Assembly (NCBI GenBank): GCA_948470905.1
Contig: CAOKQK010000035.1
Coordinates: 1 to 34,323, forward strand
Direction: 5' to 3'
Length of the DNA: 34,323 bases
Origin: an uncultured Lachnospiraceae bacterium
Lineage (GTDB): Bacteria > Bacillota > Clostridia > Lachnospirales > Lachnospiraceae
Within the stretch, counting starts at the first letter, position 1; the number at the start of each line of letters is the position of its first letter. The position numbers were made by a program, and so were the translations under genes. Under the pieces are notes generated by a model. It did no database searches. It saw only the letters and a program-made list of their open reading frames with translations, and was not told the origin of the DNA. Positions 49 to 17,496 of the stretch are shown piece by piece.

Positions 49-84
49 AAAAAAAAGAGACTCCTCCCAAAAAGGACGAATCTC
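49..84 (-). terminator. T-box intrinsic terminator
   Basis: GAGATTCGTCC (74-84) pairs with GGAGGAGTCTC (57-67) with one mismatch and one wobble. It is followed on the minus strand by eight U residues (49-56). The left arm overlaps the 3' flank of the T-box antiterminator, so the two folds exclude each other. The U-tract directly abuts the putative intron start. Confidence 0.9.
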
Positions 85-412
85 TCGTGTTACCACCTTT
101 CATTCATGCATAATTCACATTATGCACCTTATCAGGTACGGGGAAAATCTTTTCTTTTCCCGATACCCCGGACCTATAACGGTGTCTGCCGTCGTGATCT
201 ACTAACCTGATGCGCAAATCCGTACCGCCTGCCCGGCATCAAAACCCACACAGGAGTGGACAATGCTTCCATCAGATATTCAATACGCTGCTCATGGATG
301 TATTCATATCACCAAATCATGCGCCTCTCAGCACCCGGCAGCTCTCTGTATGACTTGTCGCGCGATATTACTTATTCCAATCATTGCATTTTACTGTTCT
401 CTGTTTTGTTGT
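49..412 (-). promoter_or_regulatory. T-box leader, tyrosine specifier (UAC)
   Basis: This is a tRNA-sensing transcription antitermination leader. On the minus strand it shows a Stem I with an AGUA/GAA loop-E pair, and the motif GAATACATCCATGAGC, in which the specifier codon UAC (300-302) follows GAA, predicting tRNA-Tyr. An AGAGAGCTGCCGGGTGCTGAGA apical segment lies between them. The T-box proper is AAAGGTGGTAACACG (86-100); its UGGU would pair with an ACCA acceptor end, matching the A discriminator usual for bacterial tRNA-Tyr. The competing terminator follows at once. The regulated gene is off the left edge, and an intron begins right after the leader, so the regulated RNA would have to be spliced or read through. 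Confidence 0.9.
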
Positions 413-1337: not shown

Positions 1338-2534
1338 TTACTTCCCCTTGGCAAACTCTTTCTCAAACTGTGCCAGATCCATCCCCTTCAGGGCGCGCTC
1401 CAGCAGCACAGGCAACATCTGGGGATTGCAGGCAAAGCAGGGAATGCCCATGCCCGCTATCCTCTGGGCCATCTGGGCGTCATAATAGGGCTTGCCGCTC
1501 CCCGCCAGGGCAAGCAGGCACACCACCGTGACACCTGACTCCTTCATTTCCTCTATGCGCCGCAGGAGCGCTGCGCGGTTTCCGCCCTCCTCCAGGTCGG
1601 AGATCAGGAAGAAAAGCGTCTTGGCGGGATTCTCAATGAACTGCTGGCAGTACGCCACCGACTGGTTGATATCCGTGCCGCCGCCCAGCTGAAAGCCAAA
1701 CAGCAGATCCACAGGGTCGTCGCTCTTTTCCGTGAGATCCACAATGTTGGTGTCGAAAGCCACGATCCTGGTCTTGATGCTGGACATGCTGGCAAGAATA
1801 CAGCTCACAATGGAGGAATAGATCACGGATTCCCCCATGGAGCCGCTCTGGTCGATGTCCAGGATCACCGTCCACTTGTTCGCCGCCGTGGTGCTGGTCC
1901 TGTCAAAGAAATAAAAATGCTCCGGCACTATGGTGCCCAGCTCCGGACGGTAGTGAGACAGGTTCCTGGAAATGGTCCTCTTAAAATCCAGCGCCGCCGC
2001 GGAAGGGATGGGCGAATGCTTCCTCTTGTTGATGGAAGCCGTCACCGCGCGCCGGATATCCTGTTCCAGGAGCTTGTTGATCTCCTCCACGATCTTCCTG
2101 ATGAACAGGCGCACGCTCTCCTTGGAGCGCTTGGGTATCTGATCCTTGAGCAGCAGGATCGTGGAGGCAAGGTTCACGTCCGGCTCCAGATTCTCCAGAA
2201 GCTCCGGTTCAAAGATAAGCTGTTTCAGCCCGCACCTGGTCATGGCATCCCCCTGGATCACCTTGACCAGCTCCTTGTCAAAAAGGCTTCTCACATCCCC
2301 AAGCCAGCGGGTGATCTGGGGATTGGAGGGACCGTTTCCGGCGCCCCTGCCGCTTCCCTGCGGCCCGAAGCCTCCCGACTCTGTGCGGTTGTAGATTGCC
2401 GCCAGCGCCAGATCCATCAGATCCTGCTCCGGGGTAAGCCCGCCCCCTCCCATATTCTCAAAGCGCTTCTGGCTCTCCTGACCCAGGATCAGCCGCCAGC
2501 GCTGCAGTTTCTCTTGTGCCTGCGAATTATCCAT
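1338..2534 (-). CDS. VWA domain protein with intact MIDAS (MoxR partner)
   Basis: The 398-residue protein has an N-terminal helical part (1-215) and a C-terminal von Willebrand A domain (about 222-390). A complete metal-ion-dependent adhesion site is visible: DxSGS at D228/S230/S232, T287 in GGGTD, and D313 in LISDLEE. Such proteins act in the cytosol with MoxR AAA+ ATPases in maturation or insertion of cofactors or complexes; the target here is unknown. The start is set at 2534 (MDNSQAQEKLQRW) because AGAGGTG lies just upstream. An upstream in-frame extension to 2633 would overlap the DUF5682 gene and is rejected. It is the last clear gene of the SWIM-to-VWA operon, 76 bp after DUF5682. Its order in the set resembles E. 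coli yehL-yehM-yehP-yehQ (from memory; yehP is the VWA gene). Confidence 0.85.
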   Translation of the reverse strand: MDNSQAQEKLQRWRLILGQESQKRFENMGGGGLTPEQDLMDLALAAIYNRTESGGFGPQGSGRGAGNGPSNPQITRWLGDVRSLFDKELVKVIQGDAMTRCGLKQLIFEPELLENLEPDVNLASTILLLKDQIPKRSKESVRLFIRKIVEEINKLLEQDIRRAVTASINKRKHSPIPSAAALDFKRTISRNLSHYRPELGTIVPEHFYFFDRTSTTAANKWTVILDIDQSGSMGESVIYSSIVSCILASMSSIKTRIVAFDTNIVDLTEKSDDPVDLLFGFQLGGGTDINQSVAYCQQFIENPAKTLFFLISDLEEGGNRAALLRRIEEMKESGVTVVCLLALAGSGKPYYDAQMAQRIAGMGIPCFACNPQMLPVLLERALKGMDLAQFEKEFAKGK

Positions 2535-2553
2535 ACTTACACCTCTATTTAAA

Positions 2554-2580
2554 GTCCCGCCTCTGCACTTCAGCCCCCTT
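2554..2580. repeat. Degenerate fragment of the operon's 109-bp repeat
   Basis: GTCCCGCCTCTGCACTTCAG followed by CCCCCTT closely resembles the arm GTTCYGTCTCTGCACTTCTA plus CGCCCCCT of the 109-bp repeats at 4888-5105. It lies in the 76-bp gap between the DUF5682 and VWA genes, so pieces of the same element occupy successive gaps of the operon. Confidence 0.5.
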
Positions 2581-2610
2581 GCTGTGGCTTCCGTTTCAAG
2601 GCTGTCACCT

Positions 2611-4875
2611 TTACAGATCAAAATCAAAGTCATCCAGCCCTTCCACCAGCTCCGTCGCCGCCTGGTCCAGGGCCTGGTTCACCGCCTCACTGACCTGCTG
2701 CCCGTTCAGCCCCCAGATCTCTCCCAGGTTCTCGGCGATCTCGTCCTTCTCCGCCGAGGTAAAATCCGCAAACGCCCTGCGAAGGAACACCAGCGCACGC
2801 TTGAATTCCTCCTGATCCAGCTCCTCCAGATAACTGTCCAGGTTCTCCCAGAGGGACAGTCTGGCGATCAGGGCATATCGGTTCTTCATGGCAAGCCCCT
2901 CGAACCACCCGGCCCCCAGATCAGCAGGCACGCCCTTTGACAGCCTGCGCTGCACCTCCAGCTTCAGCTCCTCCGAGGTGGCGCAGCCCCTCTCCAGCAG
3001 GATCGCCATGGCGAAACCGGAAAGCTTCGTGTTCAGGTCATCCCGCCCTGCAGTCTCCTTCAGAGCTGACAGCCACTGTTCCCTGTTCAGGAAATCATGC
3101 GCCAGAGCCGCCGCGTTCAGGTGCTCCATCGCCGTCACGATCTCCTTGCTGGCGGCGTCGTCACAGACACAGGCGCCGGGAAGCAGCAGGCATGCCCGGT
3201 AGAACATCTGCTTCAGGATCGGTTCCAGCGGCGCAGTCTCCAGGCGCCTGATGCTGCCGTAGGATATGACCGTGGACAGCCTGTAGACCGTCTGTGCCAG
3301 CCCCTCCACGGAGACGGCATCCACTGCCTTCTGCTGCAGGGCGGACACTGCATAATTCACCACAGACGCCATCCCGCAGGTAAAACCGTCCTCTATGACC
3401 GCCGCAATTTGGCCGATATCCGCCGCCTGCTCCGCCCTCTCTTTCATCCTGAAAGCTGCCGCCTGCTCCACCGTGTCTCCCTTTAATGCCGCCTCCACCA
3501 GCTCCATCTCCGCCTCCGGCGTCCAGCGTATCACCCAATGCTCCGACCAGGTGGCATTTTCCTGATTGACCTGCTGCATGCTCACAAAGCTGATCTCCAG
3601 CACCCTGAGCTGATGCAGGAAGAATGATCTATGCAGATCCAGAAACGCCGCCTTCTGAGTGGAAACCCTGCGGTTTTCCCGCAGGTCCAGCATGATATCC
3701 TGTGCCGTAAGGCTTCTGTATTTTTCCAGCTTATATTCTTTTAACAGCCTGTAAAAATCCTCCTGGATGCTGGTGCGGCTGACCCCTTCCGGAAGTGTGC
3801 CTATGGCAGTCCCGATCTCCGTGTCCGCAACCGCCAGGCTGATTTCCGAAAAGCTCCCCTTTCCCAGACAGGTCACGGCCGCGTCCCGCAGATCCCTGAG
3901 CACAGGCACCGAGCCGCCCCGTAGTCTCGCAAGCGCGGACGCCAGCCTCACCGCCTCGATGACCTCCGCGGATGAGACAGGATTGCCCTGCTCCCTCTGG
4001 TATCCCGCGATCTTGGACAGATAGCTGTACGCCGCATACATGGGTTCCCCCTTGAGAATCCCCTTCCACAGCAGCTCATAATAAGCAGGCGCCCTGTTGC
4101 CTGCTCCATATCCGGACCTGGCTGACAGCCTGTAATAAGAATAGGGCATCAGCGTATGATTCGCCCCTACCCTGGGCAGGTCTTTCAGTTCCCCGTCCGT
4201 CATTACCGGCTGCTTAGCGGACAATAATCCCTCCACATGAAAGGCTCCTGTCACCGCCACGATCTCCTCCGGTGCCAGACCTTCCGCCATGGCGTCCGCC
4301 AGCTGTCTTCTCATGTAGGCTTCCCTGACCACCGTCTCCGGCCAGTCCGCGTCCCCGCCCGCGGTCAGCGCCCGCAGCTCTTTTCCGAAAGTATTCGCCC
4401 CTTCATGGTATCCGCCCGCGTCGCCCGCATGCTCCATGGTACGCTCCCAAAAGGTCTCGTGCCCGTCCTCTCCCGCCGTCTGCCCGAGAAGCGCATAGAC
4501 ATTCATGCGACCCTCCTCGCCACAGGCATCCGCTCCTGCCTGCTCCCTCTCGGGAAAGCTTAAGAATACATCGGAAGGCAGATCCATAAACCGGCATGCC
4601 ACCCTGTGCTCCCTGCACCAGAGAAACGCCTGGTACTCCGGCGAATACTCCGCAAAAGGATACAGGATGGTGCGGATGGGCGGCTCCTTTGTGTACGCCA
4701 GTATGGCGATCGGCGGCTTCGTCTCCCGTCTGGTAAGGTTCTCCATCTGGTCATTTAAATCGCTGGGGCCCTCCACCAGCACCAGCCGGGGCTTTTTTTC
4801 ATCCAGGAATCTGCGCAGATGCCACGCGCCCGCCGGGGACAGATGCCGGACTCCGTATATATAAGGTTGATTCAT
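2611..4875 (-). CDS. DUF5682 family protein
   Basis: This 754-residue soluble protein has no signal peptide or membrane helix. The N-terminus reads YIYGVRHLSPAGAWHLRRFL and then VLVEGPSD, with GxRH at 8-11 and EGP at 35-37. Near residue 207-216 comes VTGAFHVEGL. The family is uncharacterised. This GxxH...E...GxxHxxG spacing resembles the TIKI/TraB/ChaN-like fold, which is my inference. The C-terminal two thirds is helical, with a hydrophobic/acidic tail (LVEGLDDFDFDL). The ATG at 4875 follows GAGAGGGGA. The gene lies between the MoxR ATPase and the VWA protein, as in other MoxR/VWA clusters, and probably works with them. The repeats upstream make its 5' leader more than 300 nt from the MoxR stop. 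E. coli yehM, a protein of similar length, may be the counterpart. Confidence 0.75.
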   Translation of the reverse strand: MNQPYIYGVRHLSPAGAWHLRRFLDEKKPRLVLVEGPSDLNDQMENLTRRETKPPIAILAYTKEPPIRTILYPFAEYSPEYQAFLWCREHRVACRFMDLPSDVFLSFPEREQAGADACGEEGRMNVYALLGQTAGEDGHETFWERTMEHAGDAGGYHEGANTFGKELRALTAGGDADWPETVVREAYMRRQLADAMAEGLAPEEIVAVTGAFHVEGLLSAKQPVMTDGELKDLPRVGANHTLMPYSYYRLSARSGYGAGNRAPAYYELLWKGILKGEPMYAAYSYLSKIAGYQREQGNPVSSAEVIEAVRLASALARLRGGSVPVLRDLRDAAVTCLGKGSFSEISLAVADTEIGTAIGTLPEGVSRTSIQEDFYRLLKEYKLEKYRSLTAQDIMLDLRENRRVSTQKAAFLDLHRSFFLHQLRVLEISFVSMQQVNQENATWSEHWVIRWTPEAEMELVEAALKGDTVEQAAAFRMKERAEQAADIGQIAAVIEDGFTCGMASVVNYAVSALQQKAVDAVSVEGLAQTVYRLSTVISYGSIRRLETAPLEPILKQMFYRACLLLPGACVCDDAASKEIVTAMEHLNAAALAHDFLNREQWLSALKETAGRDDLNTKLSGFAMAILLERGCATSEELKLEVQRRLSKGVPADLGAGWFEGLAMKNRYALIARLSLWENLDSYLEELDQEEFKRALVFLRRAFADFTSAEKDEIAENLGEIWGLNGQQVSEAVNQALDQAATELVEGLDDFDFDL

Positions 4876-4887
4876 TCCCCTCTCCTA

Positions 4888-5115
4888 TTCCAGTTCTGTC
4901 TCTGCACTTCTACGCCCCCTGATCTGGAAGGATTTTTCATCTGCACAGGTCGCATCTGTAAATTCCTTCCGGGGCGTATCCGTTCCGAGACTGTTGTTCC
5001 AGTTCCGTCTCTGCACTTCTACGCCCCCTGATCTGGAAGGATTTTTCATCTGCACAGGTCGCATCTGTAAATTCCTTCCGGGGCGTATCCGTTCCGAGAC
5101 TGTTGTTCCAGTTCC
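4888..5115. repeat. Two tandem 109-bp nested-palindrome repeats plus 10-bp start of a third
   Basis: Copies run 4888-4996 and 4997-5105 and are nearly identical (one difference seen, T/C in GTTCYGTC); 5106-5115 begins a third. Each unit is a nested inverted repeat: GTCTC...GAGAC outermost, then ACGCCCC...GGGGCGT, then GGAAGGA...TTCCTTCC with flanking T/A runs, with a terminal region holding a further ACAG/CTGT pair. The internal loops are roughly symmetrical. The transcript of either strand could form a long stepped hairpin. The array lies in the 324-bp gap between the MoxR and DUF5682 genes and would be part of their mRNA. One frame is open through both copies on the minus strand, but no ribosome binding site supports translation. 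Confidence 0.9.
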
Positions 5116-5175
5116 CACTTGTGGGAACTTTTCCCGCTTGTGGGAACTTTTCCCGCTTGTGGGAACTTTTCCCGC
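5112..5175. repeat. 19-bp palindromic tandem array (3.4 units)
   Basis: Units TTCCCRCTTGTGGGAACTT at 5112-5130, 5131-5149 and 5150-5168 are followed by a partial TTCCCGC. Each unit contains the inverted repeat TTCCC...GGGAA, so every unit can form its own small hairpin. The array abuts the 109-bp repeats. The stretch from 5169 to 5198 then shows another piece of the 109-bp motif (CTCTACACTTCTGCGCCCC) up to the MoxR stop. Confidence 0.9.
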
Positions 5176-5199
5176 TCTCTACACTTCTGCGCCCCATCC

Positions 5200-6285
5200 T
5201 CACTCATTCAGCTCTTTGCAGGCTTTATACAGCCCTGCCCAGGAGGCGCCGCGCTTCTTCATGACATTTTCCAGATATTCCTTCCAGACCATCCCGTCCT
5301 TGCCCTCGTCCTTCACCACGGCGCCCTGCAGCCCCGCGGCCAGATCTTCTTCCGTAATCCTGCCGTTCCCAAAGCTTCCCGCCAGGGACATACTGTTGCA
5401 CAAAAGGGAAATCGCTTCCGCGGTGGACAGCACTCCCGCAGGGCTTTTCAGCTTCTGGCTGCGGTCCAGGGTCTCACCGCTTCTCAGCTCCCGGAAAATG
5501 GTGCAGACCTTCTCCACAACCTCCTGCTCCGGCAGTACGGCATGAAGGTCCAGCCCTCCGGAGAGCTGCTCCACCCTGGTCCGCACGATTTCCATCTCCG
5601 CCTTGAGATCTGCCGGAGTGGGAAGCACTACGATATTGAAGCGGCGCTTCAGAGCCGCGGACATCTCATTGACCCCCTTATCCCTTGTGTTTGCGGTGGC
5701 TATCATGGAAAAGCCTTTCTTTGCCGGGACCTCCATCCCAAGCTCCGGCACGGATATCCTTTTCTCCGACAAAATAGAGATCAGCGCATCCTGCACCTCG
5801 GAGGCACACCTTGAAATCTCCTCCATCCTGGCGATGCTCCCCGTCTCCATGGCATGGAACACCGGGCTCTTTAACATAGCCTCCTCCGAGGGACCGTTGG
5901 CGATCAGCATGGCGTAATTCCAGGAATAACGGATCTGTTCCTCCGTGGTTCCCGCCGTCCCCTGGATCACCTGGGTGGAATCTCCGTTGATCGCCGCCGC
6001 CAGATGCTCGGAAAGCCAGCTCTTTGCCGTCCCCGGCTCCCCGATCAGCAAAAGCGCCCTGTCCGTCACCAGCGTGGCAATGGCAATCTCTACCAGACGC
6101 TCATGCCCGATATACTTGGGGGTGATCTCCACGCTGCCTGCCTTTCCGCCGCAGATATAAGTCTTCACCGAACGGGGCGACATGCGCCACCCCTGGGGAA
6201 TGGGATTCTCCTCCGCCGCTATCAGTGCGTCTATTTCCTTTTGATAAAGCTGCTCCGCAGGCAGCCGCAAAACTTCCTGTTCCAT
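5200..6285 (-). CDS. MoxR-family AAA+ ATPase
   Basis: This is a 361-residue AAA+ ATPase. Walker A is GEPGTAKS (82-89). The Walker B/E region reads IARMEEISR (151-159), with Glu where MoxR proteins usually have Asp before the catalytic Glu. Sensor 1 is in MIATANTRD (194-202), followed by an arginine-finger-like LKRRFN (212-217). MoxR ATPases pair with VWA proteins as chaperones for metal insertion or complex assembly. The ATG at 6285 (MEQEVLRLPAEQL) is chosen because the longer frame runs back into the preceding gene; AAAGGAGA lies 13 bp upstream, slightly far. The gap to the preceding helical-repeat gene is only 25 bp, indicating co-transcription. Counterpart by order: E. coli yehL. Confidence 0.88.
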   Translation of the reverse strand: MEQEVLRLPAEQLYQKEIDALIAAEENPIPQGWRMSPRSVKTYICGGKAGSVEITPKYIGHERLVEIAIATLVTDRALLLIGEPGTAKSWLSEHLAAAINGDSTQVIQGTAGTTEEQIRYSWNYAMLIANGPSEEAMLKSPVFHAMETGSIARMEEISRCASEVQDALISILSEKRISVPELGMEVPAKKGFSMIATANTRDKGVNEMSAALKRRFNIVVLPTPADLKAEMEIVRTRVEQLSGGLDLHAVLPEQEVVEKVCTIFRELRSGETLDRSQKLKSPAGVLSTAEAISLLCNSMSLAGSFGNGRITEEDLAAGLQGAVVKDEGKDGMVWKEYLENVMKKRGASWAGLYKACKELNE

Positions 6286-6310
6286 AATTAACGATATTCT
6301 CCTTTCCCGT

Positions 6311-8248
6311 CTATATTGACCGCACAACATCTTCCAGATGTTCCATCTGAAATTCGCTGGCATCCCGCAGCCGCTTCCTGTAAGCGTCACTCTTTACCAT
6401 TTCCAGAAGCTCCTGCGCCTCCGCCCTCTTAGCCTCGCCCGTGCCCGGCAGCGCGTTCAGGATATTTAAAATCTCCCATACATAGAATTGCTTTTTATTT
6501 TTGAAATAATTTATCGCAATACCCTGGCACTTCTGGTATCCATGCTGCCTTAACTGTGTGCAGCAATAAAAAATCTCCTCCGACCCCTGGAGCGCACGCT
6601 GATAAAAATATTCCATGAGCTGGCTCTCATAATTCTGGTCGCTGTCAGGGATACACTTCCCCAGCACCCGGTCCAGCCTGCCTGCCCACTTGTAAGATTT
6701 ACCGTCCTTCTTCCCCATCAGAAGCTGGAGGAAATCCCCCTCCACCCTCTGCCTGACCGGCAGAACCAGCCGGATAAACTTTTCCAACGCCGTGTTATAG
6801 ACCACCGCCTCCATAACCCAGGTCTTCCTTCCTGCATCCCAGAACAGCCCTGACAGAGCATTGGCGAACTGTTGGACGTCAATCTTCGTTCTGTCCAGCT
6901 CATTCCACAGCCACTGGGTACAGTCCTCCTCGCTTAAAAGCTTCGCCAGCAGGGCAGCAGGAAAATACGCCTCTCCCGCCTGAGTATCCCTGTAAGCCTC
7001 ATAGAGCTCCAGCACCAGGGAAATCATCTCCCTGTCAGGACACAGCACCAGATATTCCCTGACCCTCTTTGCCAGCTGGCGCTTTAAGGTGTGGTCTATG
7101 TTTCCCCTCTGATCAATATAGCCCGCCAGAAGCAGTTTCATGATCTGGGGCTTGTCGGCAAGGACCGCTGTCCTTCTGCAGCATTCGCCCACTACCCTGC
7201 CGCTCTTTCCTTTCAGCGCCTCCAGATAAAATCCCAGCCCGTTCAGATCCTGGATCACAGCCTCCTGCATCTCAGGCGCGATCCCGGCGCCGGTCTTCTC
7301 CTCCAATTTGTCCAGCTGTTCAAAAATCAGTGTCTGCACCATCTGGGATGCCCACTCCGTCCCGGACGTGCCAAGGATATGGGCGGCTTCCTGAACATTT
7401 TTCTCCGCCAGCTTTGCCACACATTCCCTTGCAGCGTCGCTCTCCATGCATGCATAGGCATAATATGCCATCTTTTTCGCCTTGCCCTTCTCCGTCTTTA
7501 TAAGGGCGGACAATAGCTCCTCATTCTCCGGGCTGTGGCGCAGGGCGTAAATAAGCGCCTGCCGGACCTCTTTCTCCGATTCAGGAAGCTGACTGACATA
7601 AAATTCGTTTTCACCTGCTCCCGCAATTGCCTCTATGACCTCCACACGCCGGAACATTTCTTTCTTACCCTTGGGATCAAAGCCTTTTTCCAACAATGGA
7701 ATAATAGACTCTCCCATGTGGGTAAGCCAGTCCTGCACATCCTCTGCAAGCTCCGCATAGGATGCCCCCAACGCCTTGACCAGAGCCGGTTTGATACGGT
7801 AATCGTAAAACAGCTCCGGTTTCCTCTCATGCATCTCTGTCAGATAGCTGTAGCGCCCTCCGCCCGAATTGGTCAAAGCGTCCACGATTGCTTTCAGATC
7901 GGAATAGGGCGCATTGTTCATCACTCCCCCCGTATTATCCAGAGCCAGCGGTGTGATTTCCTCTGCCACCGCCACCTCGCCCTGAGTACACAGCAGGGCG
8001 TCCACCAGGGTAATGGCATCCAGAAGAAGCCCTTCCTTATCCGCTGTCTTCCCATTCTCCTCCGTCTCCGGCGCAAGCAGCCTGCGCACCAGCTCCCCTA
8101 TCCTGGCAAATACCGGAGACGCCGCCTCCAGAGGCTGCATCGCCTCCGCGGCACGCTTTAACCGGAAATCCTCCGCCAGTAGATTGGTTCCGGCAATCGC
8201 CACGGCGCGCAGCCGTGCTTTCAGTTCATAAACAGGTGTAATATCCAT
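6311..8248 (-). CDS. Large helical-repeat protein of the MoxR/VWA operon, function unknown
   Basis: The 645-residue cytosolic protein is almost wholly alpha-helical, with repeated segments of 30 to 40 residues rich in Ala/Leu/Glu and patterns like LPESEKEVRQALIYALRHS, reminiscent of HEAT/ARM-type repeats. No catalytic motif, signal peptide or membrane helix is visible. It lies between the SWIM and MoxR genes, so a scaffold or substrate-adaptor role for the ATPase is a reasonable guess but only inference. The ATG at 8248 (MDITPVYELKARL) is preceded by a weak GAAATGAGG. The 116-bp gap to the SWIM gene shows no terminator. I cannot name the family. Confidence 0.8.
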   Translation of the reverse strand: MDITPVYELKARLRAVAIAGTNLLAEDFRLKRAAEAMQPLEAASPVFARIGELVRRLLAPETEENGKTADKEGLLLDAITLVDALLCTQGEVAVAEEITPLALDNTGGVMNNAPYSDLKAIVDALTNSGGGRYSYLTEMHERKPELFYDYRIKPALVKALGASYAELAEDVQDWLTHMGESIIPLLEKGFDPKGKKEMFRRVEVIEAIAGAGENEFYVSQLPESEKEVRQALIYALRHSPENEELLSALIKTEKGKAKKMAYYAYACMESDAARECVAKLAEKNVQEAAHILGTSGTEWASQMVQTLIFEQLDKLEEKTGAGIAPEMQEAVIQDLNGLGFYLEALKGKSGRVVGECCRRTAVLADKPQIMKLLLAGYIDQRGNIDHTLKRQLAKRVREYLVLCPDREMISLVLELYEAYRDTQAGEAYFPAALLAKLLSEEDCTQWLWNELDRTKIDVQQFANALSGLFWDAGRKTWVMEAVVYNTALEKFIRLVLPVRQRVEGDFLQLLMGKKDGKSYKWAGRLDRVLGKCIPDSDQNYESQLMEYFYQRALQGSEEIFYCCTQLRQHGYQKCQGIAINYFKNKKQFYVWEILNILNALPGTGEAKRAEAQELLEMVKSDAYRKRLRDASEFQMEHLEDVVRSI

Positions 8249-8364
8249 ATTGCCTCATTTCCGCGCATATCCCTGCGCAAATTCAGTGCGAAATTATTCA
8301 ATGTGATAAACCGCTTCCGGAAAATTGACATTTCCCTGCGGGCCTGTACCTTTTCCCCCAGGGA

Positions 8365-9831
8365 TCAGTACAGCAGCCTGACAACATCTTTCTCCGTGAC
8401 AATGCACAGAGGCTGCAGCCTCAGCCGCCTGGTCTGCCCGTCATAATAAAACGCCCCCAGCAGCACCTGATCCCTCAAAAGGCTCTCATCCGGCAGAAGC
8501 CCAACCCTCTCGCAGGACGGCTCCATTCCCGGCGCATCCCCAAGGAGGATAGTCTCCCCTTCCTTCGTCTGCAGCACAAGCCCTTTCTCACACTGCCCGA
8601 TCTGTCCAAAGGACAGCAGCCTGACAAACATGGTGTCCGCCAGGGCGTTTTTCAGGATATTTTTGGCCGCTTTTATCTCTGCCTTAAGAGAAACGGACGC
8701 CGCCTCCCTTACCTTTCGCAGGTCCTCCGGCTCCACGGGACGGATCTCCGCGTTCTCCCAGCGGATGCGCAGGTTCCCCTCCCCGGGATAACACGCCGCA
8801 CTGGCCGGCTCCGCAACGCCGAACACCGTGTCCTCCTGCTTAATATGTTTCAGCGCCTTATAGGGCCTGTAATTGTAAGTTATGTAGACTTCCCCGCTGC
8901 TTAGATCCGCCCAGCAGCCTGTGTCCACAAACTGCTTCCCCGCTGCGTCATCACTAACCCAGAAAGACAGCTGGATCAGGCTGATATCCTGCCTGCTCCT
9001 TCCCAGCGCCGCCAACTCCGAGAGTTTCCAGATACCCCCCAGCTCCTCATATAGGAGGTTGTCATCCTGCCCTACCTCCTCTTTCTCCAGCTTTTCCGTC
9101 AAATAGGTTTTTGATTTTTTGACGAGAGTCCAAAGCCTCTCCAACACATCAATGGCATTATCGTAATGAATTTCATTATTATCCTTTTGGAATTCCTCCA
9201 TCTCCAGGACCAGCCCGTTCAACAGCCTCTGAGGTCCGGGCAGATAGTAGTCTCCCAGCTGCTTGACCAGATCCCTGTAGGTCCCAAGGGAGGCGCCGCC
9301 AAAGGTTCCCAGCCCTGACCTTATGAGGTCCTGCACCAGCTTCTCCAGCAGTGCAAGCCCCTCCAGCTGCTTTTTAAGTTTCTTTGTCCGCGCCGCCTTA
9401 GAGCTCTTAGACGCCGCCTTTTTCTTCGCATCTCCCGCAGCGCTGCCAGCCTCGTCCGCGCCGGACGCGCTCTCCTGGGCTTTCGCTTCCTTCGCCAGCT
9501 TCTTCTCCCTCTTTTTCAGGATATCCTCCGGTATCTCGCAGATATCAAAGGACTTTCCCGCCACTATCTCATAGAGCAGCGCCAGCCCATGCTTGCAGGG
9601 GAACTGGCGGCTGGGACAGGAGCAGCGGCACACCGGCACACCGTCCTGAAAATCCGCTGAGGTGATATAGTTGCTCTTGCCGCTCCCCGTACACTCCCCC
9701 ATATAAAAAGTATCATCCGACGACTTCAGCAGGCGGACAAAACCGCCCTTCTGTGATATCTTCCTGCCGTTTGACGCTGCCGCCGCATTGGGCGCCATGG
9801 CAAGAATCTGTTGCTCCGTGATCTGCTGCAT
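8365..9831 (-). CDS. SWIM zinc-finger protein
   Basis: The 488-residue protein has a SWIM motif CxCx6CxH at C70-C72-C79-H81 (VCRCSCPSRQFPCKHGLAL). SWIM domains bind zinc and usually mediate DNA or protein contacts. A Lys/Ala/Glu-rich charged linker (about 110-155) follows, then a helical region and a beta-rich C-terminal part that repeats the family's hydrophobic pattern. The ATG at 9831 follows AAAGGAG at 8 bp. It is the first gene of the operon, behind the promoter at 9928-9956. SWIM proteins accompany MoxR/VWA clusters such as E. coli yehQ (from memory). Its neighbours suggest it recognises the client or nucleic acid on which the ATPase/VWA pair acts. Confidence 0.87.
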   Translation of the reverse strand: MQQITEQQILAMAPNAAAASNGRKISQKGGFVRLLKSSDDTFYMGECTGSGKSNYITSADFQDGVPVCRCSCPSRQFPCKHGLALLYEIVAGKSFDICEIPEDILKKREKKLAKEAKAQESASGADEAGSAAGDAKKKAASKSSKAARTKKLKKQLEGLALLEKLVQDLIRSGLGTFGGASLGTYRDLVKQLGDYYLPGPQRLLNGLVLEMEEFQKDNNEIHYDNAIDVLERLWTLVKKSKTYLTEKLEKEEVGQDDNLLYEELGGIWKLSELAALGRSRQDISLIQLSFWVSDDAAGKQFVDTGCWADLSSGEVYITYNYRPYKALKHIKQEDTVFGVAEPASAACYPGEGNLRIRWENAEIRPVEPEDLRKVREAASVSLKAEIKAAKNILKNALADTMFVRLLSFGQIGQCEKGLVLQTKEGETILLGDAPGMEPSCERVGLLPDESLLRDQVLLGAFYYDGQTRRLRLQPLCIVTEKDVVRLLY

Positions 9832-9927
9832 AAAGATGGCTCCTTTCCCTTGACCGCTTTTTGTATTCTTTCCCGTCCGTCCCAGTCATGAAGCTTCCGG
9901 GCTATGTACGGGGCGCATTCTGTTTTC

Positions 9928-9956
9928 ATTATAAGCAATATTGGCAGGGAATACAA
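9928..9956 (-). promoter_or_regulatory. Promoter of the SWIM-MoxR-VWA operon
   Basis: On the minus strand, -35 TTGTAT (9951-9956) and -10 TATAAT (9928-9933) are separated by 17 bases. The predicted start is near 9921, about 90 nt before the SWIM start codon. The rest of the 285-bp gap holds only the terminator of the chemotaxis gene. Confidence 0.75.
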
Positions 9957-10061
9957 TCGTTTTCCATGATTTTACGTAATTGAGCAGGTAAAAGGCTTTC
10001 CCCTGCTCGCCGCGCGACCCGTGCGCCGCTCTGCGTCATATTCCTTTGCAGGGATCTGTGC

Positions 10062-10104
10062 ATAAAAGAAAAAGCATCTGGGCTTTTATCCTCCAAATGC
10101 TTTT
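10062..10104 (-). terminator. Terminator of the chemotaxis receptor gene
   Basis: AAAAGCATTTGG (10093-10104, read on the minus strand) pairs with CCAGATGCTTTT (10070-10081) with one wobble. An 11-base loop separates the arms and a T-rich tail (TCTTTTATG) follows. It lies just after the receptor stop codon at 10118. Confidence 0.8.
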
Positions 10105-12005: not shown

Positions 12006-13856
12006 TCAATTATTTTGATAGTACTGCGCCTGCGCGTTCCACAGCTCACTGTACTTTCCTTCCCCGCTCACCAGGACGTCATGGCTGCCGCGCTGCACCA
12101 GCTCCCCCCTGTCAAATACAATTATGTCATCGCAGAATTTACAACTGGAAAGCCTGTGGCTGATTACCACCGTGGTCTTATTCCGGACAATGCAATGAAA
12201 GCTCTCATAGACCGCCGCCTCCGCAATGGGATCCAGAGCAGCGGTAGGCTCATCCAACACTACAAATGGAGCATCCTTGTACAGTGCCCTCGCCAGCGCC
12301 ACCTTTTGTTCTTCCCCGCCGGACAGGTCGATGCCCTGATTCTCATATCTGCGCCCGATTACGGCCTCCACTCCCTGCTCCAGGTTACGGAACCGTTCCC
12401 CAAAGCCAGCCTTTTCCAGGCAGTCCTGCACCCTGTCCCTGTCATAGTCAAAGTCTGCCGTGATATTGGCGGCAAGTGAAAAGTCAAACAGCCTGTAATC
12501 CTGAAACACAACGGAAAACAGCGCCAGATATTCCTGATAACGATATTTTGCGATATCTATCCCATTCAGCAGGATGACCCCCTCCGTGGGATCATACAGA
12601 CGGCAGAGCAGCTTGATAAAGGTGGTCTTTCCGGAACCGTTTTCTCCCACGATGGCCAGCTTGTCACCAATATGAAATCTCATGCTCACATTCCGCAGGA
12701 CCCATGCATCTGTCCCCGGATATCGGAAGCTGACATTTCTGAACTCGATCTCATAGTCGATATCATCCCTCTTTTCCACAGCAAGCGTGCCGTGGTACAT
12801 CTCGTCAGGCAGATCCAGAAACTGATACCATCTTTCCAGATATTTGTTGTTCTGACGCAACTTGGTAATATCATCCGTGATACGGATAAAGGAGCCCACA
12901 AACTGAGTGACCGTACCCTTATAAAGGAGGAAGCTGCCTATCTCAAACGTGCCTATGAATGCCTTTGCAGCTGTGATGACAAATACCGCCGTCCTCAGCA
13001 CTGCATTCTGCAGCATTGAAAATGTGCTGTACTTGACCCGCACCTTTTCCACCTCTGCCAGATGCGGCGGCCTTATCAGCGCTTTCCTGCTTTGCTTCAA
13101 TATGATTTTTCTGAGATTGAATATCGTCACATCCGATCCCCAGGCTGAACCATATGCATTCAGAAATTTCTGATGATGCACCTGAGGCTCCCAGGCCTTC
13201 AGCAGCTTGTCTGTATGCACTCCCGCGATGCGGACCGACAGCATGACATTCAGAAAGATGATCGCCGTCATCAGCACTGCGGAAGCGGGCGAATTGATAA
13301 ACGCCAGAAAGCCTGTCAGCGAAGCGTCCCTGACCGTGCGAAACATGGAAAAGGTCAGCGCGGCGGACACGATCAGGTTGGAGAGGCTGCTTATCATCGA
13401 CGGCAGGCTCTGCCCCACAATGACCGGCAGCCCCTGGCCATGCTGTATCGCAAGAGTGATATCCTCCCGAAGCGCTGTGACCTTTGGATCTTCCAGATGC
13501 TCATACTGCATTTTATACTGCTGTTCGGCATTATAAAGTTCAAACCTCCTGTAAAAATCAAAATCCCATACTGATTGTCTCCCCCACAAAACGCTGTTTG
13601 CAATATTGATGACAAACATTCCCGCAACAGTGATCAGCGCCAGTGTCATCAGTCTCCGCGGGGCGCACTCGCCCGCAAGCTCATTCACAAGCTGAGAGGA
13701 CATAAAAAGTGAAAAATACGGAAACAGCTTCTGCGCCACAGAACAGACGATATTGTAAGTCATAATCTGAGGGCATATCTGCCAGCCAAGCTTCACCCCC
13801 CGCGCAAAAAGCTTCCAATCTTCTTTGACAGTGCGTTTTTCTATGTTTTTCTCCAT
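12006..13856 (-). CDS. ABC transporter half, permease-ATPase fusion (second of pair)
   Basis: This is a 616-residue exporter-type half transporter. The N-terminal membrane domain of about six helices (40-330) is followed by the nucleotide-binding domain. Walker A is GENGSGKT (about 402), the signature LSGGEEQK (about 509), Walker B VVLDEPTAALD (about 534) and the H-loop VVISHRLSSC. The start is taken as ATG 13856 (MEKNIEKR), preceded by GGGAG; ATG 13868 is also possible, and the longer TTG start at 13901 is unlikely. It lies 90 bp after its partner and would form a heterodimer. LytTR control of the operon suggests export of a peptide, lipid or drug. No candidate peptide substrate gene was found nearby. 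Confidence 0.88.
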   Translation of the reverse strand: MEKNIEKRTVKEDWKLFARGVKLGWQICPQIMTYNIVCSVAQKLFPYFSLFMSSQLVNELAGECAPRRLMTLALITVAGMFVINIANSVLWGRQSVWDFDFYRRFELYNAEQQYKMQYEHLEDPKVTALREDITLAIQHGQGLPVIVGQSLPSMISSLSNLIVSAALTFSMFRTVRDASLTGFLAFINSPASAVLMTAIIFLNVMLSVRIAGVHTDKLLKAWEPQVHHQKFLNAYGSAWGSDVTIFNLRKIILKQSRKALIRPPHLAEVEKVRVKYSTFSMLQNAVLRTAVFVITAAKAFIGTFEIGSFLLYKGTVTQFVGSFIRITDDITKLRQNNKYLERWYQFLDLPDEMYHGTLAVEKRDDIDYEIEFRNVSFRYPGTDAWVLRNVSMRFHIGDKLAIVGENGSGKTTFIKLLCRLYDPTEGVILLNGIDIAKYRYQEYLALFSVVFQDYRLFDFSLAANITADFDYDRDRVQDCLEKAGFGERFRNLEQGVEAVIGRRYENQGIDLSGGEEQKVALARALYKDAPFVVLDEPTAALDPIAEAAVYESFHCIVRNKTTVVISHRLSSCKFCDDIIVFDRGELVQRGSHDVLVSGEGKYSELWNAQAQYYQNN

Positions 13857-13893
13857 CCCTGCTCCCATCTGCCTGCCCCCCGCAGGCATACTA

Positions 13894-13984
13894 TCCGCCA
13901 AGACCCTCCATGCCCTGACTTATTGCTCTCCGGCTCCTGCTCCCCCTCAGCATCCGCCAAGCCCCTCTATATCCTGGCTTACTG
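13894..13984. repeat. Decayed 59-bp-period duplication at the ABC gene junction
   Basis: TCCGCCAAGACCCTCCATGC (from 13894) and TCCGCCAAGCCCCTCTATAT (from 13953) begin two 32-bp blocks that agree at about 26 positions. The second encodes the last residues of the first ABC gene (SQDIEGLGGC). The first is a non-coding relic just after its stop. Confidence 0.6.
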
Positions 13985-15812
13985 TTTCTAAGTCTTCCCT
14001 GTAATATCTGCTCTGCAGCTCAAACAGCTCCCGGTATTTTTTGTTCGCCGCCATCAGCTCCTCATGCGTGCCTGTTTCCGCGATCTCTGACCCATCCAGA
14101 AGGAATATCCTGTCACAGAACCGTGTGGAGGCAAGCCGATGTGAGATAAATATGGATGTGGCATAAGGGCAGATTCCCGAATCCCCCGTTATCTCGCTGT
14201 ACCTGCGGTACATCCTGTCCTCGGCAATGGGGTCCAGAGCAGCTGTCGGCTCATCCAGTATGATACATTTCGGTCCCCGATACAGCAGCCTCGCCAGAAG
14301 CAGCTTCTGTGCCTCACCCCCTGAAAATTCCGTTCCCTCCGGATTGATCTGACGGTTGAGTGGTGTGGCCGCGCCCCCGGGCAGGGCGGCAATCTTGTCC
14401 TCAAGCCCTGCACGGCGGATGCACATGGCAAGCCTGTCACTGTCAATGTCATCATCCTCATCCGTACAGGCAATATTCTGTGCAATGGACACAGGGAGCA
14501 GATTATAATTCTGCGGAACCAGCCCGAACAGCGTATACAGCTCGTCACGGTTGTATTCTCCCACCGGATGCCCGTCCAAAAGAACCTCTCCCTCCGTGGG
14601 AAGCAGAAGGCCGCACATCAGTTTGGTCATCGTGGTCTTGCCAGCGCCGTTTAACCCCACCAGAGCAAGCTTCTCCCCCGCCTCTATCTTAAAGCTTATA
14701 TTCTCCAGTACATTTTTCTCTCCCTGAGGATATTTAAATGTAACATTTCTAAATTCTATGGAAAAAGCCCCCTCCGGCAGCGGGATACCCTGTCCCCTGT
14801 TCATCCTGTCGGGCACCTCCAGATTCTCCCGGTAATCGGAAATCCTCATGGCTCCCGCACAGATCCCGGACCACATCCCCAGGATTTTGGACACAAAATC
14901 AGCCATCTGTGTGACTGCGGAGAAATATAACACAAACTGGGCCGCATCAATCTCTCCTGCAACAGCCTTGGAAATCAGGAATGCATACGCCACCCCGTCC
15001 CGGAACAGCACCGCCAGAAAACTGATCAGCCGGCTCACAAGCTCCCTCCGCTGCAGCCTTTCTCTCTCCGCCTTGCCGTCCTTCAAGAGCCTCCTGCCCA
15101 ACAGGGCCAGATACTCCCTGAAATTGTAAAGCCTTATGTCCTTTCCGTATTTCAGGTTTCTGGCTATGTGAAAGGCAAGATAATTGATCTTCTTGTTGAT
15201 GATATTGAGGCGATCCTGTGTCTCATACTCTCGTTTTCTCACCCACGCAGACGCCAGATATCCCACCACAGAACTTCCGATGAGAAGCAGGATGATCCAG
15301 GGATTCACCAGGGATATGATAGATCCGAACAGAAAAAACTTGAGCACCGCAGATACCATGGCGGCAAAATTCAGCGGGAACATGGTTGCATTGTGAGACG
15401 GCCTGGCACGTTCGTCCAGCTGCTGAACTTCCGGATCATATTCCAGAAAGCAGTCCCTGTCGCGCCAGCGCCTTATGAGATCATACTCCATCTGCCCCTG
15501 AATATAGTGTCTGCTCAGGACAGTCTCGATCTCGATGCGCTTGTCGGCCAGCGAAAGCAGTATTTCCGCCAGTCCCAGCCCCAGAATAATCAGACCGACC
15601 GTTGAGAAATACCGGGACTTCTCCAGATACCTCAGGGTAATAGAAGGCACATACAGAGCCAGTGCGGACATGGCAAGTGAAACAGGAACTGTAAATATAC
15701 CCACAAAAACCAGACCGCGGGCATACTTCCACATCATTTTGTACATATAGCCCACACAGGACAATATTCCATATTTGGGTTTTCGTCTTTTTTCTTTCTG
15801 TACTTTTGCCAT
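13947..15812 (-). CDS. ABC transporter half, permease-ATPase fusion (first of pair)
   Basis: This is a 621-residue exporter-type half transporter. The membrane domain (about 25-330) starts after a basic N-terminus (MAKVQKEKRRKPKYG). The nucleotide-binding domain has Walker A GLNGAGKT (about 384), signature FSGGEAQK (about 495, F for the usual L), Walker B IILDEPTAALD (about 520) and a FISHRLAS H-loop. The ATG at 15812 has GGGAGG 7 bp upstream. It is the first gene of the two-gene ABC operon, behind a promoter that carries a LytTR-type operator. The regulator and kinase genes are the next two upstream, so this is a typical regulator-transporter module. The substrate is unknown. Confidence 0.88.
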   Translation of the reverse strand: MAKVQKEKRRKPKYGILSCVGYMYKMMWKYARGLVFVGIFTVPVSLAMSALALYVPSITLRYLEKSRYFSTVGLIILGLGLAEILLSLADKRIEIETVLSRHYIQGQMEYDLIRRWRDRDCFLEYDPEVQQLDERARPSHNATMFPLNFAAMVSAVLKFFLFGSIISLVNPWIILLLIGSSVVGYLASAWVRKREYETQDRLNIINKKINYLAFHIARNLKYGKDIRLYNFREYLALLGRRLLKDGKAERERLQRRELVSRLISFLAVLFRDGVAYAFLISKAVAGEIDAAQFVLYFSAVTQMADFVSKILGMWSGICAGAMRISDYRENLEVPDRMNRGQGIPLPEGAFSIEFRNVTFKYPQGEKNVLENISFKIEAGEKLALVGLNGAGKTTMTKLMCGLLLPTEGEVLLDGHPVGEYNRDELYTLFGLVPQNYNLLPVSIAQNIACTDEDDDIDSDRLAMCIRRAGLEDKIAALPGGAATPLNRQINPEGTEFSGGEAQKLLLARLLYRGPKCIILDEPTAALDPIAEDRMYRRYSEITGDSGICPYATSIFISHRLASTRFCDRIFLLDGSEIAETGTHEELMAANKKYRELFELQSRYYREDLETVSQDIEGLGGC

Positions 15813-15848
15813 GCTTATACCTCCCTGCTTTCCCCTGGTCTATTGCAC

Positions 15849-15909
15849 AGTATAGCACTTCCACACAAAAAAAGTTACCTTCCGTGAATGAAATGTAACT
15901 TTCAGTGAA
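15849..15909 (-). promoter_or_regulatory. LytTR-type operator and promoter of the ABC operon
   Basis: Two direct repeats read on the minus strand, TTCACTGAAAGTTAC (15895-15909) and TTCACGGAAGGTAAC (15874-15888), match at 12 of 15 positions and are spaced 21 bp start to start, two helical turns. The -10 TATACT (15849-15854) lies 19 bp after the proximal repeat. That repeat therefore covers the poor -35 region (TAACTT), the layout of promoters activated by LytTR dimers (ComE, PlnC, AgrA type). The LytTR regulator encoded at 16795-17496 is the obvious candidate activator. Confidence 0.8.
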
Positions 15910-15951
15910 CCAAATTTTAAATTTTTTGACAAGCAAAATATTCCACCTGTG

Positions 15952-15981
15952 GGGTTGGACCCTCCATGGAGCATTCAACCC
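15952..15981 (-). terminator. Hairpin after the GHKL kinase gene, possible terminator
   Basis: GGGTTG (15976-15981 on the minus strand) pairs with CAACCC (15952-15957) around the perfect palindrome CTCCATGGAG. The tail (CACAGGTGGAATATTTT) is a weak U-tract, so termination may be partial. Confidence 0.4.
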
Positions 15982-16032
15982 GACCCCCGCAGTTGCCGCA
16001 GGACAAATCCACAAGGGCAAACATCTATGTAT

Positions 16033-16692
16033 TCAGCCGTCAAGGGGTATCAGGGCCTCCGCCGTAAATCCTCCGTCCTCGCTGTCAGCGCTGAAGGTAC
16101 CCCTGTGTTTCTTTATAATCCCTGTGACTCTTGAGAGCCCAAAGCCATGCTCGGCGCCCTTTGAGGATTGGAAGATGGTCCCTGTCTTCTCAAGCTTTCC
16201 GCCCGCCGCGTTGGTGACGGCAATATACAGGTAAGTACTCTTTGTGCCGATATAGAGCCGGATAAAACGTTTCTCCTCCGCCAGCCTCCTGTTCTCCTCA
16301 ATGGCATTGTCCATAAGATTTCCGATAATGACACACAACTCTACGTCATTGATCCCTGCGGCTGCAGGAATTACCGCCTTGGCATTTACCGGGATGTGAT
16401 TCTGCGCCGCTATGGATATCTTGCCGTTCAGGATGGCATCCACCATGACGCGGCCGGTCTTCAGCACCGTATCCACTGTAGTCAGATCATCGTTGAGCTG
16501 GCGCAGATACGCATTGACCTCCTCATAATTGCCCAGGGCCATGCTTGCCTGCATAGCCTGGATGTGATTGTGATAATCATGCCTCCAGCCGCGCATCTTT
16601 GTGTACATTGCTTCCACCTCATCGCAGTACTTCCGCATAAGATCGCTCTGATAAGCATCTATCCTCTTGTTGATCAGTTTTTCTAACCACAT
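16033..16692 (-). CDS. Soluble GHKL sensor kinase lacking a membrane domain
   Basis: The 219-residue kinase has a phospho-acceptor-like RHDYHNHI motif (H38), an N-box NLMDNAIEE (125-133) and a G-box HGFGLSRV (about 190-197). This matches the GHKL kinases that pair with LytTR regulators (AgrC/ComD type). Those usually have five to seven membrane helices before the kinase domain; here only about 30 residues precede the H-box and no hydrophobic segment is present. The short 102-bp gap upstream encodes no membrane helix in a usable frame. The ATG at 16692 follows ATAGGTATACT. The signal may come from another protein, perhaps the ABC transporter. It is co-directional with the response regulator upstream. 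Confidence 0.85.
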   Translation of the reverse strand: MWLEKLINKRIDAYQSDLMRKYCDEVEAMYTKMRGWRHDYHNHIQAMQASMALGNYEEVNAYLRQLNDDLTTVDTVLKTGRVMVDAILNGKISIAAQNHIPVNAKAVIPAAAGINDVELCVIIGNLMDNAIEENRRLAEEKRFIRLYIGTKSTYLYIAVTNAAGGKLEKTGTIFQSSKGAEHGFGLSRVTGIIKKHRGTFSADSEDGGFTAEALIPLDG

Positions 16693-16794
16693 AGTATACC
16701 TATACCTGATTTCATATCTGTATAAAATCCGGACTTTCTCTCAAAACCGGCAATTCAGCCGCAGACGGCGGGTCATCAAAATCCCTGCGCATGT

Positions 16795-17496
16795 TCAGAA
16801 TAATTCTATGATTGCCTTCCCTACCGCTTCCGCCCCGCCACGGCTGACGGGAATTTCCTCCCCGTTTCGCAGTACCACGCTGCGCGAGTTGATCCGGGCA
16901 ACAAAACACAGATTGACCAGAAAAGACCTCTGACACTTATAAAAACGCTCGTCAAGGTCAGCCTGCATCTCCGCAAGGGACGCTTTCATGCGGTACTGTC
17001 CGTCCTGCGTGTGTATTGATACATATTGTTTCTGTGCTTCAATATACAATATGCTGCCGAGAGGTACAAAGCATGTCTGCCTGTCAAAGACCACCTTCAG
17101 ACGCTTCTCTGTCTTTGTCAGATTAGCTGCCGCCCTGGCCAGGACATTTGACAGACGCTCCCCCGACACAGGCTTCATAAGATAGTGTAGCGCCGACACC
17201 TCATAGCCCTCCGCCATAAAGTCCGGAAAGCCGGTGATAAAGACGATCTGCACAGAACTGTTATCCCTGCGGATCTTTCCCGCAAGCTCCATACCGCTCA
17301 CTTCTCCCATCTCAATATCCAGAAGCAGGATGTCAAAGTCTCTCTCCGTCTCATAGCAGAACAGGAAAGCTTCCGCCGAAGGAAATTCCCTCACCACAAC
17401 AGGGCTGCCTTGCAATTTCGCCCAATCCGCCACAAGCGCCGCCAGATATCTGACATCCGCACCGCAGTCGTCACAGATGGCTATCTTAAAATTCAT
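16795..17496 (-). CDS. LytTR-family response regulator
   Basis: The 233-residue protein has a receiver domain (1-120) with acidic pocket DD at 9-10, phospho-acceptor D60 in ILLLDIEMGE, and T/K conserved sites (FITGFPD, YLMKPVS). It is followed by a LytTR DNA-binding domain (about 130-233), with ILYIEAQKQYVSIHT and RFYKCQRSFLVNL typical of the fold. The ATG at 17496 follows GGGAGATAGGA. The direct repeats upstream of the ABC operon are its likely target. It sits 34 bp after the MmcQ gene and 102 bp before the GHKL gene, probably one transcript with both. Confidence 0.93.
   Translation of the reverse strand: MNFKIAICDDCGADVRYLAALVADWAKLQGSPVVVREFPSAEAFLFCYETERDFDILLLDIEMGEVSGMELAGKIRRDNSSVQIVFITGFPDFMAEGYEVSALHYLMKPVSGERLSNVLARAAANLTKTEKRLKVVFDRQTCFVPLGSILYIEAQKQYVSIHTQDGQYRMKASLAEMQADLDERFYKCQRSFLVNLCFVARINSRSVVLRNGEEIPVSRGGAEAVGKAIIELF

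Follow-up and report, generated by a model that had tools for sequence, protein, structure and literature searches.

A conserved SWIM, helical-repeat, MoxR, DUF5682 and VWA gene module with a candidate client of predicted Tiki/TraB type

Introduction

Pairs of a MoxR-type AAA+ ATPase and a protein with a von Willebrand factor A (VWA) domain are known mainly through the clients on which they act. In the structures of NorQ/NorD, the VWA protein inserts a finger into the MoxR pore, and a twist powered by ATP has been suggested to open the client so that metal can be inserted (PMC13036017, PMC9976466); the authors expect this finger-in-pore mode for other AAA+/VWA pairs as well (PMC13036017). YehL has been named as a MoxR subfamily of its own, apart from RavA and CGN (PMC3893208); here and below, papers are cited by their PubMed Central (PMC) number. 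We analyzed a locus with such a pair in a stretch of 34,323 nucleotides (nt) from an uncultured Lachnospiraceae bacterium (contig CAOKQK010000035.1 of GenBank assembly GCA_948470905.1), called the window below. The locus encodes a SWIM zinc-finger protein, a helical-repeat protein, a MoxR ATPase, a DUF5682 protein and a VWA protein. An earlier reading of the sequence (the original prediction) had presented these genes as a candidate ATPase system. We propose, with a probability of about 0.5, that the MoxR-VWA pair remodels or activates a client encoded in its own operon, DUF5682, the N-terminal domain of which has a predicted Tiki/TraB fold, and which is likely a hydrolase, probably a protease.

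In the open-license PMC literature, we found no published function or client for yehL, yehM, yehP, yehQ or the YehL subfamily, in agreement with the earlier statement that E. coli yehLMPQ lacks a known role; one may have been published elsewhere. These genes were co-mentioned in a genome announcement and a strain resource, and no paper on DUF5682 or DUF5691 was found in the same literature.

The five genes form one conserved module

Loci were drawn by similarity to DUF5682 (the best 80 of 559 confirmed relatives), so that the counts of gene order are conditional on this gene. Addition of loci from a plasmid collection, a phage collection, E. coli and whole genomes brought their number to 118, of which 116 were distinct (L124 is identical to L063, and L125 to L056). 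Two arrangements were distinguished: type I has the order of the window, SWIM-helical-MoxR-DUF5682-VWA, and type II a yeh-like order, MoxR-DUF5682-VWA-SWIM, with a DUF4132 gene. Loci were typed by gene content, according to whether SWIM, helical, DUF5691 or DUF4132 genes were present, a rule that favors complete cassettes; eleven left-over loci were typed by the nearest DUF5682, ten as type I and one (L137) as type II. The type I count required at least 5.5 kb upstream and at least 1.7 kb downstream of DUF5682, a flank found in 77 of the distinct type I loci typed by gene content; only one of the ten left-over loci, L059, has it, and its addition made the denominator 78 rather than 77.

All five genes were present in 74 of these 78 distinct type I loci, and 73 of them showed the order of the window. 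The 74 loci comprised 53 with the arrangement of the window, 17 with the same arrangement and DUF5691, three with the DUF5691 form plus DUF4132, and one in which the first two genes were swapped. The four loci short of five genes were L006 and L093, with SWIM and DUF5691 in single open reading frames (ORFs), L087 and L059. The five large proteins of the original prediction were borne out as products of co-directional genes, and distant genomes show this gene set in the same order, with few breaks in synteny. Furthermore, the pairwise distances of MoxR, DUF5682 and VWA correlated with each other (0.95-0.97), and among 84 type I loci the observed value was reached in 0 of 500 permutations.

A reverse test, free of the conditioning on DUF5682, was made by searching 61 genomes of the source genus for each gene separately. 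DUF5682 was found in 24 of them; MoxR was present in all 24 and in only one (G204) of the 37 others (Fisher p 4e-16). The type I helical and SWIM queries matched an identical set of 8 genomes of the genus. G226, which is type I by its DUF5682, carries a fragment of the helical gene at a contig end that was missed by the helical query. DUF5682 was present in 21 of 200 genomes of the wider family, and at least 80% of yehM was present in 5166 of 5426 E. coli genomes. The system was also found on 36 records of the plasmid collection, several of them chromosome-sized (31 records when E. coli YehM was the query), and on one of 50,697 records of the phage collection, an unverified 14-kb faecal scaffold. 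We conclude that the five genes are one conserved module.

DUF5682 contains a predicted Tiki/TraB-type domain

DUF5682 consists of an N-terminal predicted Tiki/TraB-type domain (residues 1 to ~250) and a mostly alpha-helical remainder. An AlphaFold2 model, together with structural and profile matches, gave the N-terminal domain the parallel-sheet core of the Tiki/TraB superfamily. The domain has two motifs of the Tiki/TraB type GX2H and a conserved Glu; these aligned with the motifs of TraB at E 3e-7. H11, E35, R184, H213, E80, D98 and E185 were each conserved in 116 of 116 distinct relatives, and so was G210, while position 8 was Gly in 99 and Pro in 17. R184 aligned to the Arg of the TraB 'ERD' segment, in line with the conserved basic residue near the active site that is a feature of the TIKI fold (PMC6254334). 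With the full-length model, no Foldseek match had E <= 0.001 and the rows were mostly helical-repeat proteins; DUF5682 profiles gave no convincing match to PDB sequences.

We predict that the N-terminal domain has a Tiki/TraB fold; DUF5682 is likely a hydrolase, and by analogy probably a protease, since Tiki proteins have been described as metalloproteases (PMC12329661). The 'possible enzyme' of the original prediction thus holds as a prediction, and the statement that no obvious client enzyme is present does not, because DUF5682 is itself a candidate client or effector inside the operon. We consider it as the dedicated one because it is the only enzyme-like protein of the cassette besides the ATPase and because no outside gene recurs across phyla. 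No recurring outside partner or client was found among the neighbors: the clusters present in at least 4 loci lay at scattered distances and belonged mostly to large families: histidine kinases, ABC transporters, short-chain dehydrogenases, and transporters of the MATE and other types, as identified from the sequences themselves or from domain matches. A Clp-type AAA+ gene (AAA_2, ClpB_D2-small) was found 318-384 nt after VWA in L017, L018, L019 and L035 (e.g. L035:13933-16287). It would fit a link with proteolysis in one lineage only, as these four related Lachnospiraceae-type loci also have other neighbors in common.

Motifs of the other four components

In MoxR, the Walker A Lys, the sensor-1 Asn and Arg-Arg were conserved in 112 of 112 distinct relatives. 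All 112 also have Glu-Glu in Walker B instead of the usual Asp-Glu, which is, judged from these sequences, a marker of this MoxR clade. In the VWA protein, the length of which is mostly ~375-420 aa among relatives, each residue of the metal ion-dependent adhesion site (MIDAS; DxSxS...T...D) was found in 105 to 107 of 107 distinct relatives. The SWIM finger (CxC...CxH) lies at residues ~65-88 of the window protein, and 100 of 102 distinct relatives have it as well; the exceptions, L015 and L023, are ORFs that begin at a contig start. Type I proteins carry a single SWIM motif, as against two in 16 of 18 type II proteins. The pairing of MoxR with VWA and the SWIM zinc finger had both been correctly recognized in the original prediction.

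HEAT (PF13646) was found in 50 of the 120 listed relatives of the helical protein. Its profile matched that of DUF4132 with an E of 4.4e-6 (501 columns) and, less strongly, that of DUF5691 with an E of 3.5e-4 (424 columns); reversed controls gave 0.14 or worse, and the DUF5691 and DUF4132 profiles matched each other at E 0.02 only. Because of these profile matches, which are to be read with the caveat that repeats can match by kind, the fifth component may be a helical scaffold of one and the same kind in all loci, for which the evidence is moderate.

The source genome carries both arrangements

Another DUF5682 locus of the source genome, found on contig C64, holds a type II set in the order MoxR, DUF5682, beta-galactosidase-like, Sel1-repeat-like, VWA, SWIM protein and DUF4132. 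The names of the two genes inserted between DUF5682 and VWA (L004 4755-7894) come from reading the sequence rather than from a domain scan; apart from them, the order is that of yehL-M-P-Q. Insertions within the cassette were likewise seen in G204 and L042. The resemblance to yehLMPQ that the original prediction had noted therefore held for the relationship and not for the gene order, the window being a separate type I locus and the yeh-like one lying on another contig of the same genome. YehM and the DUF5682 of the window are 25% identical.

By similarity, 19 distinct loci were type II: 11 with MoxR-DUF5682-VWA-SWIM-DUF4132, 4 without DUF4132 in the stretch covered (among them that of the source genome, where DUF4132 comes just beyond this stretch), 3 with DUF4132 elsewhere, and L137. 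In E. coli, DUF4132 (yehI) lies upstream of yehL-M-P-Q. Among the plasmid records, those of Deinococcus, Rhizobium and Methylosinus have the order of the window with a DUF5691 gene replacing the helical gene, that of Hymenobacter has SWIM-DUF5691 as a single ORF, that of Iodobacter the yeh order behind DUF4132 genes, and that of Sinorhizobium MoxR-DUF5682-DUF4132-VWA-SWIM. In trees of MoxR, DUF5682 and VWA, type II (with L137) separated from type I with a support of 1.0, 0.998 and 1.0, respectively. Two arrangements spread over many phyla are united here as one system, to which the SWIM, HEAT-like, DUF5691 and DUF4132 proteins would all belong as parts of one machine. A separate ORF of ~180 aa without Pfam match was also seen in 6 type II loci (e.g. 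L135 10640-11182), within the cassette in 5 of 6 copies; it resembles a C-terminal part split off from the SWIM protein.

Organization of the locus in the window

The features of the cassette are collected in Table 1. For MoxR, the best start is an ATG with AAGGAG upstream, the listed ORF of 396 aa beginning at an upstream GTG (to 6390); for VWA, an ATG is likewise the likely start, the listed ORF of 431 aa extending to 2633. The shorter starts give lengths that match those of relatives. The ATG of the SWIM gene is also preceded by AAGGAG. From SWIM to VWA, the intergenic gaps are 116, 25, 324 and 76 nt.

Table 1. Coordinates of the cassette genes and of associated sequence elements in the window
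Feature	Position	Strand	Remarks
SWIM zinc-finger protein	8365..9831	-	488 aa; first gene; PF04434, 27.5 bits (cut-off 19.6)
Helical-repeat protein, alpha-helical (HEAT-like)	6311..8248	-	645 aa; window protein itself without Pfam match
MoxR-type AAA+ ATPase	5200..6285	-	361 aa; AAA_5, 132 bits
DUF5682 protein	2611..4875	-	754 aa; PF18934, 505 bits
VWA_CoxE protein	1338..2534	-	398 aa; PF05762, 153 bits
Promoter-like TTGTAT-17-TATAAT ahead of SWIM gene	9928..9956	-	weak; seen by direct reading
MoxR-DUF5682 spacer repeats	4888..5168	-	tandem duplication 4888-5105; palindromic copies 5112-5168

The 'one clear promoter' that had been proposed was not confirmed. The -35 box of the pair ahead of the SWIM gene matches the consensus at 3 of 6 positions, and we grade this plausible promoter as weak because the pair fell below the threshold of a consensus scan and was not listed; the scan itself gave 7 promoter-like sites where 4.3 were expected. 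The five genes may not share one transcript, since the 324-nt gap holds a near-perfect (99%) tandem duplication of 109 nt, directly before DUF5682, and three tandem copies of a 19-nt palindromic repeat (TTCCC...GGGAA type) that is found genome-wide (80 matches with at most 2 mismatches, against 0 for the reversed-pattern control). The palindrome looks like a REP-type element, and the repeats of this spacer are probably incidental. Another dispersed repeat, a 78-nt stretch at ~9990-10067 upstream of the SWIM gene, has copies of 94-95% identity on contigs C18 and C101. In an empty-site comparison with the relatives having the closest MCP gene (n = 5), DNA similarity was confined to the MCP gene, and for this reason no insertion boundary could be read.

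Elsewhere in the window, a T-box leader (69-393, minus strand; Rfam RF00230, 97.1 bits) serves a gene beyond the window edge. A long protein (26626-29928, minus strand) with fucose pyrophosphorylase and GHMP kinase domains is probably a bifunctional L-fucose salvage enzyme, and two adjacent ABC exporter proteins with a GHKL kinase and a LytTR regulator (12006-17496, minus strand) look like a peptide-signalling or bacteriocin-type set.

Discussion

Proposed mechanism and points against it

By analogy with NorQ/NorD, CbbQ/CbbO and RavA/ViaA, the MoxR hexamer would hold the VWA protein through its pore, and ATP would drive a twisting or opening of DUF5682, leading to metal loading or to the switching on of its active site. 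The substrate would be recruited by the SWIM protein and by the long helical protein, which is HEAT-like or DUF5691 in type I and DUF4132 in type II, as sensor and scaffold. More tentatively, the system may represent a new bacterial class of regulated hydrolytic machine, in which DUF5682, a Tiki-type protease, is opened or metallated by a MoxR hexamer with VWA as the lever, while SWIM and an alpha-solenoid choose the substrate, and which would exist in two ancient arrangements, one being the near-universal yehLMPQ of E. coli. DUF5682 would be the first testable enzyme of a widespread orphan system; its assignment gives an operon present in almost every E. coli a predicted active site and a specific interaction to probe.

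Several observations weigh against the proposed mechanism, in which MoxR or VWA would contact DUF5682 as a likely hydrolase. Some loci lack part of the module: SWIM and helical genes were not found in 9.9 kb upstream in L059 and in 8.2 kb upstream in L060 (which has less flank), the SWIM gene was not found in L087, SWIM and DUF4132 were not found in 8.0 kb downstream in the type II locus L137, and VWA was not found in 9.9 kb downstream in L079, a cyanobacterial contig with less flank. G204 has SWIM-helical-MoxR followed by unrelated ORFs up to the contig end, without DUF5682, and may be a true or an assembly-caused exception. In the Methylosinus record (L008), VWA is in three pieces. A DUF5682-VWA fusion occurs in L059 only, with no fused relative among the 120 matches listed; we set it aside as evidence, as it may be a frameshift. 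With respect to the fold, the Glu that precedes the first catalytic His by two residues in Ere and RRSP is absent from DUF5682, where position 9 is Ile (79) or Val (37) in all 116 relatives; the four TraB proteins compared likewise lack it. The TraB profile that gave the match was built on two sequences only. With two further members of the TraB family the match fell to E 0.017, with the four combined it was 5.1e-6, and a single Ere sequence gave no match. Foldseek alone gave a best E of 0.018, with no match at E <= 0.001. Finally, the invariant residue set does not prove hydrolysis, since ChaN binds haem and TIKI-fold domains need not be proteases. PMT, a TIKI-fold domain without the catalytic motif, did not cut KRas (PMC6254334).

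Alternative explanations

The pair might instead insert a metal or cofactor into an enzyme encoded elsewhere (e.g. a molybdoenzyme), with DUF5682 as a ChaN-like carrier of metal or haem rather than a hydrolase. The system would then resemble Mg-chelatase, in which AAA+ and VWA proteins serve a large catalytic subunit. However, no metalloenzyme family recurred beside the cassette in the neighbor lists inspected (one of them the top 25), and in D. radiodurans the molybdate genes moeA and moeB did not respond under conditions where DUF4132 genes did (PMC8533742). We consider this explanation rather unlikely. The same study bears on another view, that DUF5682 is a structural pseudo-enzyme and that SWIM and the helical protein recognize some unrelated complex, of protein or nucleic acid, for remodelling by the machine, in the manner of Rea1/Midasin on ribosome precursors: genes with DUF4132 and WGR domains were up upon DdrO depletion (PMC8533742), and yehF is listed in a table of SOS genes with values up to 1.14 (PMC11002266). 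These data are a weak lead to a stress or DNA-damage cue as the trigger. Three components have large helical parts, and SWIM fingers occur in nucleic-acid proteins, both in line with such remodelling. Yet the E. coli locus showed no LexA-type site above chance (7 matches to CTGTN8ACAG with at most 1 mismatch, for 5.3 expected, none just ahead of yehL), the Bacillus-type site GAACN4GTTC was not found in the window, and the seven residues of DUF5682 that are invariant in 116 of 116 relatives go beyond the needs of a scaffold. We regard a pseudo-enzyme as very improbable.

A conflict (defence) system, in which SWIM and the helical protein sense an invader and MoxR-VWA unleashes DUF5682 as a toxic hydrolase, had been left open in the original prediction. 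Published conflict systems are built around MoxR-vWA pairs (PMC7159879), the cassette is patchy in the genus and family and occurs in plasmid-collection records, and single nearest neighbors match defence models such as PtuA, AriA, Csx1 and DolB. However, adjacent genes were not enriched: 42 PADLOC families (E <= 1e-10) were represented among the 86 nearest ORFs, whereas 85 ORFs lying farther out in these loci gave 63, in a test that counts families, not proteins. The ORFs, from 44 loci, were picked mechanically, and some may be antisense; 86 further ORFs were drawn at random from 165 and L050:17263-22302 was left out. We thus rejected the idea of a defence island. The five proteins themselves gave no confident match in PADLOC 2.0.0, the best being mad8 (14.5 bits, E 0.0045) and DpdE (13.5 bits, E 0.0028), and the VWA proteins are short and do not carry the variable C-terminal effectors seen in the systems already published. 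Because of the PADLOC comparison and of the near-universal occurrence of yehM in E. coli, unlike that of a typical accessory defence system, we disfavor such a system; the patchiness in the family and the plasmid cases leave some room for a defence function, which we regard as improbable.

Comparison with known systems

With the MoxR-vWA ternary conflict systems (PMC7159879), the locus shares the core pair, the MoxR of the window scoring 32.5 bits for bpMoxR (Pfam cut-off 27), and it differs by a VWA protein without variable effectors. None of the third components VMAP, iSTAND, FtsH and beta-propeller was matched by the five window proteins in Pfam and NCBIfam scans, and the terms SWIM, EreA and YehL do not occur in the text of that paper. 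Like NorQ/NorD, CbbQ/CbbO and RavA/ViaA, the system has a MoxR AAA+ protein with a VWA partner that would act on a client, and its MIDAS and ATPase motifs are intact; in contrast with them, it belongs to another MoxR subfamily, with the Glu-Glu Walker B, and has a different client. DUF5682 resembles the Tiki/TraB/ChaN/EreA superfamily by the predicted fold and the set of two His, one Glu and one Arg in its N-terminal domain, and differs by its long helical part, by being encoded with MoxR-VWA and by the missing ExH Glu of Ere and RRSP. E. coli yehLMPQ with yehI shares with the window the MoxR, DUF5682, VWA and SWIM families that mark a YehL-type MoxR system. It differs by its type II order, by DUF4132, by the two SWIM motifs usual in type II and by forming a separate clade, whereas the window has SWIM and the HEAT-like protein first and a single motif. 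We conclude that the system is real, conserved and uncharacterized in the literature searched, and that it belongs with the MoxR-VWA systems, an enzyme fold being newly predicted for it here.

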